A stretch of 35,634 nt of DNA from a virus. Both the position numbers and the translations under genes were made by a program. Shown one piece after another: positions 19,264 to 26,912 of the stretch. Within the stretch, counting starts at the first letter, position 1, and the number at the start of each line of letters is the position of its first letter. The stretch covers positions 1 through 35,634 of the IMG/VR virus record IMGVR_UViG_3300032242_001051; one strand, given 5' to 3'. Under the pieces are notes generated by a model, which made no database searches, was not told the DNA's origin, and saw nothing but the letters and a program-made list of their open reading frames with translations.

Positions 19264-19656
19264 CTAGCGGTAGAATTCCTGGACTTCTCTAGGTGTCGCT
19301 AGTACAAAACCTTCGATGCTATCGAAAATTCTTTGTGCGTGATCCTCTGGCATTGGAACAAATGGATGTTCGTGACTGAAAACATAGTTTCCAATTTGAT
19401 AAGACATATTGCCTCTGGTCATTTTTACAAGAACAATTCCTTGTTCATTTACATCAAATGCCTGTGGTCTTGGATCTGGACCTGCCTCAACTTCTACCTG
19501 CTCTGAATTTGTAAACTTTGAATACATATCGTATGTTACTCCTTCATCTTCTAGCAAAAGAATAAGCTCTTGTTTTGTTGCTTTTGTAGGGATGTCAACA
19601 GCAAATGAATCCGCAATTTCTCGGAGTTCTTTTACTTTTAAAGTGTTAAATGACAT
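19264..19656 (-). CDS. SAP/HeH-like domain protein next to the capsid gene, possible capsid accessory protein (130 aa)
   Basis: True start is the ATG at 19656, which has an AAAGGA site and a TGGTATAAT promoter upstream; a longer frame upstream runs through the terminator and is spurious. Residues about 4-40 (LKVKELREIADSFAVDIPTK, then ELILLLEDEGV) look like a SAP/HeH/Rho-N helix-extension-helix. The C-terminal part (IVLVKMTRGNMSYQIGNYVF, EHPFVPMPEDHAQRIFDS, ATPREVQEFYR) resembles small proteins encoded just after the major capsid gene in Gram-positive siphophages. It may bind capsid or DNA; function unproven. Confidence 0.6.
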   Translation of the reverse strand: MSFNTLKVKELREIADSFAVDIPTKATKQELILLLEDEGVTYDMYSKFTNSEQVEVEAGPDPRPQAFDVNEQGIVLVKMTRGNMSYQIGNYVFSHEHPFVPMPEDHAQRIFDSIEGFVLATPREVQEFYR

Positions 19657-19680
19657 TCTATTCCTTTCTCTATATAATAC

Positions 19681-19689
19681 ATTATACCA
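19681..19689 (-). promoter_or_regulatory. Extended -10 promoter (TGGTATAAT) for the connector genes
   Basis: Exact TGn-TATAAT on the minus strand between the capsid terminator and the 19656 start (24 bases to the ATG). Same arrangement as after the major tail gene. Confidence 0.6.
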
Positions 19690-19708
19690 AATACTAAATA
19701 AAATGAAT

Positions 19709-19734
19709 AAAGGGAGCCAATATATGCTCCCTTT
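19709..19734 (-). terminator. Intrinsic terminator after the major capsid gene
   Basis: Nine-base-pair stem (AAAGGGAGC / GCTCCCTTT) with an 8-base loop, followed on the minus strand by a T-rich tract (ATTCATTTTATTTAG). It lies 20 bases past the capsid stop. Confidence 0.8.
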
Positions 19735-19753
19735 ACCCAATGTTCGATAGAGA

Positions 19754-20962
19754 TTAGTATGTACCCAATCCGTTTGTTCCTGGTTGGATGTTCGTAAGAG
19801 TGCCTCGGACAAAGAATGGATCTGTTGTCTGAGCACCATTAGAAGTTGAACCAAATGAACCAGCTGGGGTTGCTGTACCTGAAACACGGACATTCTTCAC
19901 GATAACGTGAGCGTCATAGTTTTCGATAGCAGTACCAACACGAATGAATAGTGTGTATTCAATTGTGTCTTTCTTTGGCTGGAACAGACGGTATACAACA
20001 ACATCACGCTTGATACCAACGATAAAGTTCTGTGGGAAAGTCAAGTGGACTTCACCATGCAGACCTGATGTACCGTTAGAACCTGTGCCGAGAGTTGTAT
20101 CGTATGCACGAGTCTCATCCATCAATGGTACGTTAATTACTGGGATACCAAACGCAAATGGCGTTGTAGTACCTGGACCACCATCATTAGCAGCAACTTC
20201 ACCACGAAGGATACCTGAAGAGATATCAAATGGCAAGAAGTTGTTTGTAGTGTTGGTTAGGTTGTATAGATAATCCTGTACCAAGTTTGAACCAGCGAAG
20301 AAACGCAGTTGATTACGGCGTTGCTTGTACTTACGAGGGAGCTGCTTGATAGCAAGGTTGAAAACACCTTTATCAAGACCATAGCCCTGTGCATCAACAA
20401 CGTGTGCGTTGTCAATTGCGAGCTGACGGAATCCCTTGAATGCTGACAATAGACCTGTACCTGAGCCAGTTCCGTTGATCAATACATCTTCTACGTCATT
20501 ACCAGCCTGTGTAGCCATAAGACGAGCAATGTGATCTTCTAGGTCTGGACCTTCGATGTTGTCTTCAAGAGACTCTGCTGAAAGCTCCCAATCAAGACGT
20601 AGCTTACGGGTTGTCAAAGAGACCTTTGAGAACACTGCACCCTGTGGGGTGAACTGTCCTGTCTGACCGCTATTGTAACCTGTGTAATCTGTTGGATAAT
20701 CTTCCTGTGCGACAGTCATAATTCTCTGACCTACTGCGACACGATCAATTTCAGTTGTGTTGGAGCGCATACGGATTGTACGAGCTGACTTAGCCAAAAT
20801 TGTTGCATCCCACATGTAGTCAAGGAATCTGTTTGCCTGATCTGGGTAAAGGAGACCAGCACCACCCTTAGTCTGTGGACCATCATCACCTGTGGTGGTT
20901 AGACCCGCATTTGTTCCAAGTAGTGTAGTATCAATTACCTTTTGCAAAAGTTCGTTACTCAT
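19754..20962 (-). CDS. Major capsid protein, HK97 fold (402 aa)
   Basis: Lies directly after the protease-scaffold gene and is of typical HK97-fold length. N-terminal arm residues 1-45 are Gly-rich (LLGTNAGLTTTGDDGPQ). The E-loop/spine region follows (RTIRMRSNTTEIDRVAVGQR, then VSLTTRKLRLDWELSAESLE), with a helix DLEDHIARLMATQAGNDVED then VLINGTGSG, a feature common in this family. The C-terminal part includes PQNFIVGIKRDVVVYRLFQP and the A-domain-like FIRVGTAIENYDAHVIVKNV. GC content is visibly higher than in neighbouring genes. It has the same leader as the major tail gene and is followed by a terminator, consistent with very high expression. Confidence 0.9.
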   Translation of the reverse strand: MSNELLQKVIDTTLLGTNAGLTTTGDDGPQTKGGAGLLYPDQANRFLDYMWDATILAKSARTIRMRSNTTEIDRVAVGQRIMTVAQEDYPTDYTGYNSGQTGQFTPQGAVFSKVSLTTRKLRLDWELSAESLEDNIEGPDLEDHIARLMATQAGNDVEDVLINGTGSGTGLLSAFKGFRQLAIDNAHVVDAQGYGLDKGVFNLAIKQLPRKYKQRRNQLRFFAGSNLVQDYLYNLTNTTNNFLPFDISSGILRGEVAANDGGPGTTTPFAFGIPVINVPLMDETRAYDTTLGTGSNGTSGLHGEVHLTFPQNFIVGIKRDVVVYRLFQPKKDTIEYTLFIRVGTAIENYDAHVIVKNVRVSGTATPAGSFGSTSNGAQTTDPFFVRGTLTNIQPGTNGLGTY

Positions 20963-21000: not shown

Positions 21001-21492
21001 TTATAGGTTTTCGGAGCTGAGGAAGCTTCCTTGCCAAAAATCATTTGATTTGTTGATGACTAGATCTGTATTATCTACCTCACCAGATTTTTTAATTGCG
21101 GTATCACTTTCTACCAATTCAACTCTATGAGCTGTGTCAGTAAGTGACTTTTTCAATTCATCAACAATTTCCTTAATTTCGTCTATCGACTTCTTAAGGT
21201 TTTCTTTTTCTGCCTCTACTGCTTCAAATCTTTTAACAAGATCTGATTTTTCAGCGTCTAGGGCTTTACGAATTTCCTGAGCTTCTGCTGATGTGTCAGC
21301 AATGCTCTTTTCAAGCTTTTCTCCAACAAAGTCTTTTAGGTCAGTAACCATCTTTGTAAAGTCTAAATCATCGACCTCTACTTCAGAAATTTCAGCAGCT
21401 TTTTCAACTACTGTATCGTCACCATCTTCAACAACTTCATTGATCTCTTCAGCTTGGTCTTCTGTTAGTTCTTCTAGGTTTTCGTTATCCAC
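21001..21492 (-). CDS. Nested scaffolding protein from an internal GTG start (163 aa)
   Basis: Inside the protease-scaffold gene, in the same frame, GTG at 21492-21490 (residue 305) is preceded by AAAGGAGGT with a 6-base spacer. This is the strongest Shine-Dalgarno sequence in the window. The product begins VDNENLEELTEDQAEEINEV and covers exactly the acidic coiled-coil domain without the protease. The layout matches lambda C/Nu3, where a scaffold is made from an internal start in the protease gene. It would supply excess scaffold over protease during prohead assembly. Inferred from the sequence; expression is not shown. Confidence 0.72.
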   Translation of the reverse strand: MDNENLEELTEDQAEEINEVVEDGDDTVVEKAAEISEVEVDDLDFTKMVTDLKDFVGEKLEKSIADTSAEAQEIRKALDAEKSDLVKRFEAVEAEKENLKKSIDEIKEIVDELKKSLTDTAHRVELVESDTAIKKSGEVDNTDLVINKSNDFWQGSFLSSENL

Positions 21493-22404
21493 GATATTAC
21501 CTCCTTTGCTGATTTTGTTGTCTTTCTTCTTTTTCTTTTTACCCTTTGTAGTACCAATACTATTTTGATCAGGGTATAAATTTATTGTATCTTCTGTGTC
21601 AATCACAGGATTAAGTGGGGCGGATGCTGATTCTACAGAACCATTTGGACCATGTGATGAAGTTGGAGCATCGTCTTTTTTAAAGTATCCATCAATTACT
21701 TTTTTAATAGCCGTAGGCTTTTCAGTATCAAACTTTTCAACCCATCCAACGGTCTCCATTTTGTCGCCACAAATGCTGCAATTCTTTGTTTCTCCCGAAG
21801 AAGATGTAGCAATCTGGTCTGTTCCGCACCAGAAGACGTTTTCTGTTTCAACTTCTGTTGCCATCCCCTTAAAAATTAATTTATCGCCATTCTTTTGAAT
21901 AGAAAAAATATTTGCTAATGGATTTGCGGGACTATCAACAAGACTTAATTCATTAAGATCATATTCCTTAATTACTCTTATCTGTTCTTCTGAATCTTCC
22001 TCGCCAGGCTCCATGCCAGCCTCTATAATATTACCACCGATTGAAAAACCAGTAAGGGTGCCATCTAATACTTTTTCCCAAGTATCTTGTGCACCCTTTG
22101 AAACATAAACATTTACAAAAACACCTTTGTAATTTTTTCCTGAATCAGCATCATAGTAGTCTTCTTCATTAAAAGACAATACTTTTCCAACAGCAATTGG
22201 TTGATGCATTTCACGAATATTTCCACGAAATCTTTCAAATGCTTTTTTACTAGCATCTGACAAAACAATGTCACCGTGTCTGTCTGGATTATCTAGTGTT
22301 GCAAAACCAGACACAGTGCGATTTTCTTTATCTATTTTAGCAATTGGAAATGCAAGACTCATCTTGTGATCTCCATTTGACCATGTAGCTTTTTGAATAT
22401 TCAT
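21001..22404 (-). CDS. Capsid maturation protease fused to scaffold (XkdF-like, 467 aa)
   Basis: Residues about 15-170 are an HK97/XkdF-type prohead protease: GFATLDNPDRHGDIV (candidate H43), MHQPIAVGKVLSF (H67), DGTLTGFSIGGNI (S121) and DLNELSLVDSPANPLA (E152) supply the expected His-Ser-acid set. Residues 190-215 hold three cysteines (C193, C209, C212, the last two as CSIC), a possible partial zinc site. A Lys-rich linker follows (about 285-300). Residues 305-467 are an acidic coiled-coil scaffold (AEAQEIRKALDAEKSDLVKR, then EKENLKKSIDEIKEIVDELK). The protease would digest the scaffold and capsid arms inside the prohead. The start has no Shine-Dalgarno sequence and lies nine bases after a -10-like element. 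Confidence 0.85.
   Translation of the reverse strand: MNIQKATWSNGDHKMSLAFPIAKIDKENRTVSGFATLDNPDRHGDIVLSDASKKAFERFRGNIREMHQPIAVGKVLSFNEEDYYDADSGKNYKGVFVNVYVSKGAQDTWEKVLDGTLTGFSIGGNIIEAGMEPGEEDSEEQIRVIKEYDLNELSLVDSPANPLANIFSIQKNGDKLIFKGMATEVETENVFWCGTDQIATSSSGETKNCSICGDKMETVGWVEKFDTEKPTAIKKVIDGYFKKDDAPTSSHGPNGSVESASAPLNPVIDTEDTINLYPDQNSIGTTKGKKKKKKDNKISKGGNIVDNENLEELTEDQAEEINEVVEDGDDTVVEKAAEISEVEVDDLDFTKMVTDLKDFVGEKLEKSIADTSAEAQEIRKALDAEKSDLVKRFEAVEAEKENLKKSIDEIKEIVDELKKSLTDTAHRVELVESDTAIKKSGEVDNTDLVINKSNDFWQGSFLSSENL
21499..21507 (-). promoter_or_regulatory. Internal ribosome-binding site AAAGGAGGT for the nested scaffold
   Basis: A near-perfect anti-16S match placed 6 bases before an in-frame GTG, at the boundary between the Lys-rich linker and the coiled coil. 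The encoded residues (SKGG) lie in a linker, so there is little protein constraint to explain it. Confidence 0.75.
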
Positions 22405-22413
22405 CTTGTTATT

Positions 22414-22434
22414 ATGATACCAAGTTTTATAATG
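22414..22434 (-). promoter_or_regulatory. Promoter for protease-scaffold gene, near-leaderless geometry
   Basis: TGGTATCAT (extended -10, hexamer 22414-22419) lies nine bases from the ATG. A weak TTGTAT lies 16 bases further upstream of the hexamer. No Shine-Dalgarno sequence lies between the element and the ATG, so the transcript would have a leader of only two or three bases. Confidence 0.45.
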
Positions 22435-22458
22435 AATACAAAATTATGGTATTTTTTT

Positions 22459-24033
22459 TTATTCTACTTTTCTACCTTCGCCTTGAGGATTTCTTGCATC
22501 CCCCTGTTTATCTGGAGCATTAATATTTCTTTTTTGATCTCTTTGTCTTGTTCCATTAGCATCAGTTTTAGCTTCTGATTGTTCTTTTGGACCAATAACC
22601 AGTGGCTCATCTCCCCCGCCTCTTGGGGCAAGACCCTTGCGAAGTCTAACTTCATTAGGAAGAATAACCTGATCTTTAAGATAAACATCATCAATTCTTG
22701 CTTGTGTTTCTTCATCGGTAAGAGTTAGTTCATTAAATCTAAGCCTGAAAGCATCTGTTATTTCAGCAACAATTCTTTCAAGTTTCTTTTCTACATAATC
22801 TTGTGCTGGTCTACAAACCTGTTCTTTAAAGGTTTTATCCGCATCTTTAGCATTTGCAAGAGAAACGCCTTGTGGCGTTCCAATCTTAGAAATAGGTACA
22901 CGATGAGCCATTAAAATACGGTCACGGGATTCAATTGCGTATTCCTTGAATGATGAATCTTGAATACCCGCTTCAATAGCTTGCATATCAAATTCAACTC
23001 TTGCATTTTCTCCGTCAGATGGAAGCGGAATATAAAGTGTTCTATGATTACGACCTCGCAAGCCTGTTTGGAAAAATTCAAGAAGTTTGCGTTCTGAATC
23101 AGCATTAAGACGGGCACCTTTAATTGTAATAACATATCTTGGAACTGCTTTATTTTCAAAATAATCTAAGTTATAACGCTGTGCAAACTCGTCACCAGCA
23201 ACTGCATTCTTTGCAGACATAATATCTGGAATGCCATAATAAGTATTTGTAGGAGAATATTTTTTAAAGTGAATAACTTCATTTGGTCTTGGATCTGTAC
23301 CAATTTGATCTTCGGTAGTAGTATCTCCATAATTTCTAAAGAATGTGTAGCGATTGTAAACAACTTGAACAAAACCGTCTCTATGTCGGCGAATACGCAT
23401 TGTAATTGCGGGAATATGACCAATGTATCCAATCTTACCACTTGAAGTTCTGCCAATTTCTAAATAACCATTTCCAGTAACTTCCCAATCTGTAACAACT
23501 TTTTTCATTGTTTCTAAAAAGTCGTCATCTGAATTCATATTATCTAAATATTGTTTTAAATCTTCTTTTCCACGAGCAATATTTCTACGAATTTTATCCA
23601 GTTTCTTTGGATCACTTAGGACATCTTCAACTCGTTCTGTTGTTTTTCTAGTTTCCTCAAAATCATAACCTAATCCAATAATATTAGATACTTTGGCGTT
23701 GACGGCGGAATGATGAAAAGGTGAAATATCGTATAATTGTGCTAGATACATAACATTGTATGGTGGTTGAACAATCATAAACAGGGAATAACCTGTTAGG
23801 TCAAGTGGGTCTAGTTTCTTTGATTTGGCATCATCAAGACCAGTAAATGACTTTTCTAGCCTATTTGCTCTACGCTTAAAATTAGAACTAAGACCATCAA
23901 GCTTTTGAAGCTCCCCCCAGTTGCTTAAAAATGGGTCATCAAAATCAGATTCTGTTTGCTTTCTGATTCCACGATCCATTACAACTTGGATACCATTTTC
24001 ATCATCGTCATCTACAGGTACTAGACTTGCCAT
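22459..24033 (-). CDS. Portal protein (524 aa)
   Basis: Typical portal length and position upstream of the protease and capsid genes. Visible family features: NVMYLAQLYDISPFHHSAVN near the N-terminus, a wing region (VTDWEVTGNGYLEIGRTSSG, then IPAITMRIRRHRDGFVQVVY), GIPDIMSAKNAVAGDEFAQR, then the clip/stem region RILMAHRVPISKIGTPQGVS and ANAKDADKTFKEQVCRPAQD. These fit the PBSX/phage_portal family. The C-terminus is a charged, probably disordered tail (RQRDQKRNINAPDKQGD). It would form the dodecameric DNA channel at one capsid vertex. The start overlaps the upstream stop by one base (TAATG), so it is coupled to the 113-residue gene. Confidence 0.9.
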   Translation of the reverse strand: MASLVPVDDDDENGIQVVMDRGIRKQTESDFDDPFLSNWGELQKLDGLSSNFKRRANRLEKSFTGLDDAKSKKLDPLDLTGYSLFMIVQPPYNVMYLAQLYDISPFHHSAVNAKVSNIIGLGYDFEETRKTTERVEDVLSDPKKLDKIRRNIARGKEDLKQYLDNMNSDDDFLETMKKVVTDWEVTGNGYLEIGRTSSGKIGYIGHIPAITMRIRRHRDGFVQVVYNRYTFFRNYGDTTTEDQIGTDPRPNEVIHFKKYSPTNTYYGIPDIMSAKNAVAGDEFAQRYNLDYFENKAVPRYVITIKGARLNADSERKLLEFFQTGLRGRNHRTLYIPLPSDGENARVEFDMQAIEAGIQDSSFKEYAIESRDRILMAHRVPISKIGTPQGVSLANAKDADKTFKEQVCRPAQDYVEKKLERIVAEITDAFRLRFNELTLTDEETQARIDDVYLKDQVILPNEVRLRKGLAPRGGGDEPLVIGPKEQSEAKTDANGTRQRDQKRNINAPDKQGDARNPQGEGRKVE

Positions 24034-24374
24034 TATTTATATAATCCCATCTTTCTTTTTTCTTCTAAATCTTCTTTAATTGCAGGTACATCTAGTTCAT
24101 CTGGTACAAGTCCCCATTCTAGTCTATCTTTTTGTTCTTGATATTCTTCATTAGTTACCTGCCTATGTCCAGAAAACCATATTGGCTGACCCTCTTCAAT
24201 TCCATAATGTTTTGCTGCTGATTTTAATCTATTAATTTTGCGAATATCGCCCTTCATAGCAGCAATATTAAGGTAATTTCCTTCATCATCCATTACTACT
24301 GAACCATTTGGCATTTGCCAAAGATATAATCCATAGTTGACTTCTTCAACTGGTGTTACTTTCATTTTTCCCAT
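24033..24374 (-). CDS. Small conserved-type protein encoded just before portal (113 aa)
   Basis: Soluble protein with a beta-rich start (GLYLWQMPNGSVVMDDEGNY), a helix (AAMKGDIRKINRLKSAAKHY), the segment GQPIWFSGHRQVTNEEYQEQ, and a charged C-terminal helix. Proteins of this pattern sit immediately upstream of portal in Gram-positive phages, but I cannot assign a function; it is not a recognisable terminase subunit. The first ATG (24374) has no Shine-Dalgarno sequence and lies six bases after a TGGTAAAAT element. A second ATG (residue 4, 24365) has only GGGA upstream, so a leaderless start at 24374 is plausible. Confidence 0.65.
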   Translation of the reverse strand: MGKMKVTPVEEVNYGLYLWQMPNGSVVMDDEGNYLNIAAMKGDIRKINRLKSAAKHYGIEEGQPIWFSGHRQVTNEEYQEQKDRLEWGLVPDELDVPAIKEDLEEKRKMGLYK

Positions 24375-24380
24375 GAAATG

Positions 24381-24389
24381 ATTTTACCA
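24381..24389 (-). promoter_or_regulatory. Extended -10 promoter variant (TGGTAAAAT), leaderless geometry
   Basis: TGn plus TAAAAT; six bases separate the hexamer from the ATG, which would put the start of transcription at or next to the start codon. Confidence 0.5.
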
Positions 24390-24421
24390 TTATTTATGAC
24401 GAAAACGAAATTTTTGAACAT

Positions 24422-26896: not shown

Positions 26897-26903
26897 ACTA
26901 TAT

Positions 26904-26912
26904 ATTATACCT
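26904..26912 (-). promoter_or_regulatory. -10 promoter element (AGGTATAAT), leaderless geometry
   Basis: Perfect TATAAT hexamer with seven bases to the ATG at 26896. It lies in the 21-base gap between two adhesin genes. The only purine-rich site (AAAAGG) is upstream of the predicted transcription start. Confidence 0.5.

Follow-up and report, generated by a model that had tools for sequence, protein, structure and literature searches.

A conserved internal Shine-Dalgarno site in a phage prohead protease gene and the probable scaffold product nested behind it

The minus strand of the IMG/VR virus record IMGVR_UViG_3300032242_001051 (35,634 bases, analysed at full length and called the window here) carries, in order, genes for a portal protein, a prohead protease and a major capsid protein. 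The protease gene (22404-21001) raises the question of whether it encodes one protein or two. We consider it highly likely that this one gene, in one frame, gives two proteins: a 467-amino-acid (aa) prohead protease with a scaffold tail, and a 163-aa scaffold alone. What can be read from the sequence is an internal Shine-Dalgarno (SD) site, its conservation, selection on it at the DNA level, and a protease start that has no SD. The initial annotation had placed the internal SD 6 bases before an in-frame GTG at residue 305 of the long open reading frame (ORF), and the coordinates (SD at 21507-21499), the frame and the product length proved correct.

In the window, the sequence AAAGGAGGT is separated from the GTG (21492-21490) by a spacer of 6 nucleotides (nt), AATATC. 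Both AAAGGAGGT and AAGGAGG occur once in the whole window, counting both strands. The predicted SD duplex at this GTG (-12.6 kcal/mol) is the strongest among the 368 internal in-frame ATG, GTG and TTG codons of the predicted genes, the next being -10.1 kcal/mol. It also exceeds that of every predicted gene start (best -10.8 kcal/mol), so the site is indeed the best SD match in the window, as had been claimed. When codons were permuted among synonymous positions, keeping the protein and the codon usage, 1 of 200 versions of the gene matched the observed SD strength.

Loss of the site in homologues had been named beforehand as the finding that would speak against it, and we made this comparison with relatives taken from IMG/VR, INPHARED and genome scans (identity from 86% down to about 30%). 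All 121 related loci with an ORF extending into the linker have kept an SD followed by an in-frame ATG, GTG or TTG at the protease/scaffold junction. In 120 of them the duplex energy is -10 kcal/mol or lower, the single weaker SD being that of Rhodococcus phage NiceHouse (-8.7 kcal/mol). Among the loci are Streptomyces phages (Boydwoodruffvirinae and Loccivirinae) and Rhodococcus phages (Weaselvirus and Trinavirus), and the site is also present in two contigs of metagenome-assembled genomes. In the Streptomyces phages StarPlatinum and Jay2Jay, the internal start falls at residues 258 and 255, respectively. The SD and a start codon are constant, while the spacing (5-9 nt in the terms of the scan), the intervening residues and the identity of the start codon vary; the start is GTG in 33, ATG in 25 and TTG in 3 of 61 non-redundant relatives. 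More distant proteases from Herbaspirillum (-7.5 kcal/mol) and Rhizobiales (-10.2 kcal/mol at 3 nt spacing) show no comparably strong site, and we therefore claim the site for the window protease family only. A similar site at residue 296 of Alicyclobacillus phage MMB025, whose strength is reached by 7 of 200 shuffles, is suggestive of a further case.

The pattern of synonymous change points to the nucleotides themselves. Aligning the codons of 19 close relatives (the clade of the window) gave 0 synonymous differences at codons 297-302 (K I S K G G), the pairwise expectation being 313. This is the lowest value of 466 windows along the gene, tied only by a poorly covered two-residue window at the N-terminus. 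Codons 297-308 have almost no synonymous differences, and the neighbouring residues are freely replaced. Wherever the start residue is Val, it is encoded by GTG (33 of 33 non-redundant relatives), a codon that makes up about 5% of the Val codons elsewhere in these genes. The initial annotation had suggested selection for translation, arguing that the SD encodes residues of a linker. Both parts are borne out, as the SD-encoded residues lie in a segment of very low predicted confidence (Table 1) and the codons are invariant. Judged from these alignments, the internal initiation site is under selection at the DNA level.

Table 1. Features of the protease-scaffold gene and its neighbours in the window
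Feature	Positions	Strand	Basis or remark
Portal protein	22459..24033	-	Pfam Phage_portal, E 3.4e-30
-35-like element TTTTGTATT	22435..22443	-	conserved in relatives
-10-like element TATCAT, 9 nt before protease ATG	22414..22419	-	conserved in relatives
Full-length head maturation protease-scaffold ORF, 467 aa	21001..22404	-	phrog_9427, Pfam Peptidase_S78
Protease domain, about residues 1-175	21880..22404	-	Pfam S78 and S78_2 matches, invariant alignment columns
Small Cys-containing domain, about residues 187-223 (C193, C209, C212)	21736..21846	-	near-invariant Cys columns; local pLDDT about 75-83
Disordered linker with internal start, residues 244-347	21364..21675	-	pLDDT below 50
Internal SD AAAGGAGGT	21499..21507	-	strongest among 368 internal in-frame starts; kept in relatives
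Internal start codon GTG, residue 305 of long form	21490..21492	-	only GTG, ATG or TTG in 61 non-redundant relatives
Nested putative scaffold ORF, 163 aa: acidic N-terminus, helix, conserved C-terminal tail	21001..21492	-	sequence and model
Long helix, predicted coiled coil, residues 349-435	21100..21360	-	AlphaFold, pLDDT about 72-87; weak matches to many coiled-coil families
C-terminal tail, TAxKKSG and W/F-x-G-x-F motifs	21004..21102	-	conserved T435, A436, K439, S440, W457, G459, F461
Major capsid protein, 402 aa, without N-terminal delta (scaffold) domain	19754..20962	-	phrog_1623; Foldseek matches to HK97-fold capsids
pLDDT, predicted local distance difference test score.

How the long form is started is a separate question. 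None of the 61 non-redundant relatives with enough upstream sequence has an SD at the protease ATG (median duplex -0.1 kcal/mol, none -8 kcal/mol or stronger). Although GGAG precedes residue 15, we did not take that residue for the true start of the protease: the family conserves MNIQK but not Met15. In 57 of 60 non-redundant relatives, a -10-like hexamer starts 12-17 nt ahead of the protease ATG, and in 48 of the 60 a -35-like TTTG or TTG[ACT] lies 34-41 nt ahead of it (shuffle mean 7.6). The two occur as a pair in 47 relatives against 1.1 in shuffles (maximum 5) and in 0 of 59 before the capsid gene; the patterns were chosen after inspection of the upstream sequences, which makes the shuffle comparison somewhat flattering. 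The usual distance from a -10 element to the transcription start would place the 5' end of the mRNA at the protease ATG or close to it. The protease start shows both sequence marks of a leaderless gene, lacking an SD and having a -10-like element some 7-10 nt ahead of the ATG. Streptomyces has many leaderless messages, with 264 mRNAs whose leaders are shorter than 10 nt (PMC4681348), and for initiation in mycobacteria it is enough that the transcript begins with RTG (PMC4633059). The long form of this phage is probably read from a leaderless mRNA. The start without an SD and the promoter-like pair at leaderless distance go beyond the initial annotation and are new here.

There is a substantial chance, though we lean away from it, that translation of the long form depends on coupling to the gene upstream or on a weak leadered start. 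In Boydwoodruffvirinae that gene has a 4-nt overlap with the protease start, as coupling would have it, but in the window and in most IMG/VR relatives it ends about 40-60 nt before the start, and the -10/-35-like pair is retained with a spacer that varies. Elsewhere on the minus strand, the weak-SD starts at 24374 and 26896 have the -10-like hexamers TAAAAT and TATAAT, respectively, at the same distance (24375-24390 and 26897-26912), and leaderless starts may be common in the head module of this phage. TATAAT-type promoter-like elements, often GGTATAAT, are also found a few tens of bases before the minus-strand genes at 2182, 15666, 32320 and 35462.

We assigned the short product as the probable scaffold from its position, its acidity, its predicted coiled coil and the nature of the capsid protein. 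The HK97 capsid protein carries a scaffold domain of 102 residues (PMC12749128). The window capsid protein, which Foldseek matched to HK97-fold capsids, has about 20-45 residues ahead of its conserved core (from about residue 36) and lacks an HK97-type N-terminal scaffold domain of about 100 residues. A separate scaffold is therefore expected, for which the nested product is the obvious candidate. In annotated relatives the interval from portal to capsid holds the capsid maturation protease, either alone or accompanied by a small membrane or hypothetical protein; a scaffold annotation is absent from all 17 of them in the stretch viewed. The first 60 residues of the short product contain 23 Asp or Glu against 4 Lys or Arg. 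The initial annotation had put the site exactly where the acidic coiled coil begins. That is true of the acidic stretch, whereas the long helix is predicted to begin at residue 349, about 44 residues further on.

Internal initiation could be real and the short protein could still be a core, ejected or regulatory protein and not the main scaffold. It has no sequence match to any proven scaffold, which leaves room for this idea. We nevertheless regard it as improbable, as the short protein is encoded between the protease and capsid genes, has an acidic coiled coil and accompanies a capsid protein without a delta domain, and the window has no other scaffold candidate between the portal and capsid genes. 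Some results do weigh against the two-protein interpretation. A search of solved structures by sequence with the protease-scaffold alignment gave coiled-coil matches only, which are uninformative, and no significant match to a solved scaffold; the match to phrog_73 (head scaffolding) was weak (E 0.016). The full-length AlphaFold model has low confidence (pLDDT 59.8), and Foldseek found no match for it in PDB at E 0.001 or better. RNA accessibility at the internal site is ordinary in the window, at the 65th percentile within the gene, compared with a family mean at the 83rd. Lastly, the relatives share ancestry, so the counts are not independent trials and overstate independence.

The conserved Gly-Gly of the SD-encoding codons suggests another explanation for the site. 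K/E-G-G might be kept as a peptide, for example as a cut site for self-release of the protease, with the SD likeness as a by-product. Of 62 non-redundant relatives, 60 have the Gly-Gly, which sits in the flexible linker joining the protease and scaffold parts. We find this explanation very hard to sustain. Among these relatives the first Gly of the motif is GGA in 59 of 60 and GGC in none, the start Val is always GTG, and the start residue alternates among Met, Val and Leu, solely as start codons. In one locus (L132), AAGGAGG is read in another codon frame (AAG GAG GAT) and encodes K-E-D, not K-G-G, and the SD encodes KGD in L054 and KEE in L057 (phage MMB025). The SD is kept while the encoded residues differ, indicating that the DNA and not the peptide is conserved. 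Conservation of Gly-Gly at the peptide level was rejected on codon choice and on these three loci. An SD present by chance within the coding region is barely credible, for although SD-like sequences do arise by chance and 5-20% of synonymous shuffles attain the observed strength in some Met-richer relatives, only 1 of 200 does so in the window, the clade has no synonymous change at the site and all informative relatives have it.

The layout of the gene fits the two proposed products. The ORF matched the head maturation protease family phrog_9427 (Stanwilliamsviridae and relatives) over residues 1-464 of 467 (E 9.8e-126), and its N-terminal part matched Pfam Peptidase_S78 (E 1.1e-6, 29.4 bits, gathering cut-off 21). 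His67 and Ser121 are invariant in the alignment columns of the family and are candidate catalytic residues. The AlphaFold model has a folded N-terminal part, a disordered linker (residues 244-347) and one long helix (residues 349-435); as it had no Foldseek match, we did not use it for claims about fold. The small Cys domain, with its CxxC at 209-212, is found between protease and linker and thus in the long product alone. The Cys segment (C193, CxxC 209-212) is absent from NiceHouse. The C-terminal tail is a plausible candidate for the capsid-binding end. Across relatives, between 221 and 564 residues precede the internal start, and only 159 to 228 follow it. A Tudor-like domain (PF11160) is inserted between protease and internal start in two loci (L025 and L078), and a third (L034), whose ORF runs to 741 codons, has several insertions in the same interval. 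Since the insertions precede the SD, the short product is unaffected. Beyond the protease-scaffold gene, a search of solved structures by sequence with the capsid alignment gave no match. The called ORF 19264-19893 (minus strand) shares 140 bases with the capsid gene, and its first ATG lacks an SD; the true start is probably downstream of the called one, perhaps at 19527, where an in-frame ATG follows GAAGGAG.

From these features we infer initiation at the GTG in the cell, a scaffold function, the stoichiometry of the products and a leaderless mRNA for the long form. The long form (protease, Cys domain and scaffold) would be made in small amounts, and the short scaffold form, started at GTG 21492 by a near-perfect SD, in many molecules. 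The many free scaffolds and few protease-scaffolds would co-assemble through their common coiled coil and C-terminal capsid-binding tail. The scaffold would thereby bring the protease into the prohead, where the protease would later cleave it. The sequence supports the first two of these steps, the making of the long and the short form; co-assembly, delivery of the protease and later proteolysis are drawn by analogy from lambda and Mu. There is an even chance, in our judgement, that two kinds of start set the ratio for capsid assembly, with a promoter at the protease ATG giving a leaderless message for the protease-scaffold, and the near-perfect internal SD starting the free scaffold. If so, transcripts reading through from upstream would give scaffold and capsid proteins and little protease.

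The initial annotation had likened the gene to lambda C/Nu3. The likeness holds as a strategy but not as a protein family, the lambda C protease being S49-type and the window protease belonging to Pfam S78, with no Pfam S49 match at E up to 0.1. We found no sequence similarity between the two systems, and the promoter-like element and the long start without an SD are further differences. In lambda, C, Nu3 and the portal together form an initiator complex (PMC3224144). Mu and Mu-like phages have an in-frame scaffold start with an SD inside the protease gene, which in PaMx73 is the codon of Val177 (PMC4378225), and such an arrangement occurs in many phages according to the KS10 paper (PMC2628397). 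The window gene resembles those of Mu, PaMx73 and KS10 in its SD-led in-frame scaffold start and that of PaMx73 in its Val start; it differs in the protease family and in the Cys domain of the long form, which has Tudor-like insertions in some relatives, and here the arrangement is shown by a comparison spanning more than 100 loci. Herpesvirus UL26/UL26.5 likewise encodes a 3'-coterminal protease-scaffold and free scaffold in one frame; the short form there has its own mRNA, whereas here it is expected from an internal SD. In HK97 and T5-like phages (Demerecviridae), the protease gene also adjoins the capsid gene and encodes a distantly related protease (30% identity), but the protease stands alone and the scaffold is the N-terminal delta domain of the capsid protein (HK97: PMC12749128). 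The distant Vibrio relatives in Demerecviridae (L055 and L056) have a stand-alone protease of about 200 aa.

The nested protease/scaffold strategy is thus already known from lambda C/Nu3, Mu and Mu-like phages (PMC4378225, PMC2628397, PMC8508860). For Stanwilliamsviridae, the literature searched gave no account of a scaffold start nested in this way, most subscription journals lying outside its reach. The window gene is a probable new case of the known strategy in a family with an S78 protease, and the two proposed modes of start would be its novel part. The nested product would supply the apparently missing scaffold gene for a widespread group comprising Stanwilliamsviridae, related Rhodococcus phages and many uncultivated phages, whose genome annotations miss the internal scaffold start. 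Confirmation of the leaderless start would reveal how a phage sets the ratio of protease to scaffold by two modes of initiation on one message.
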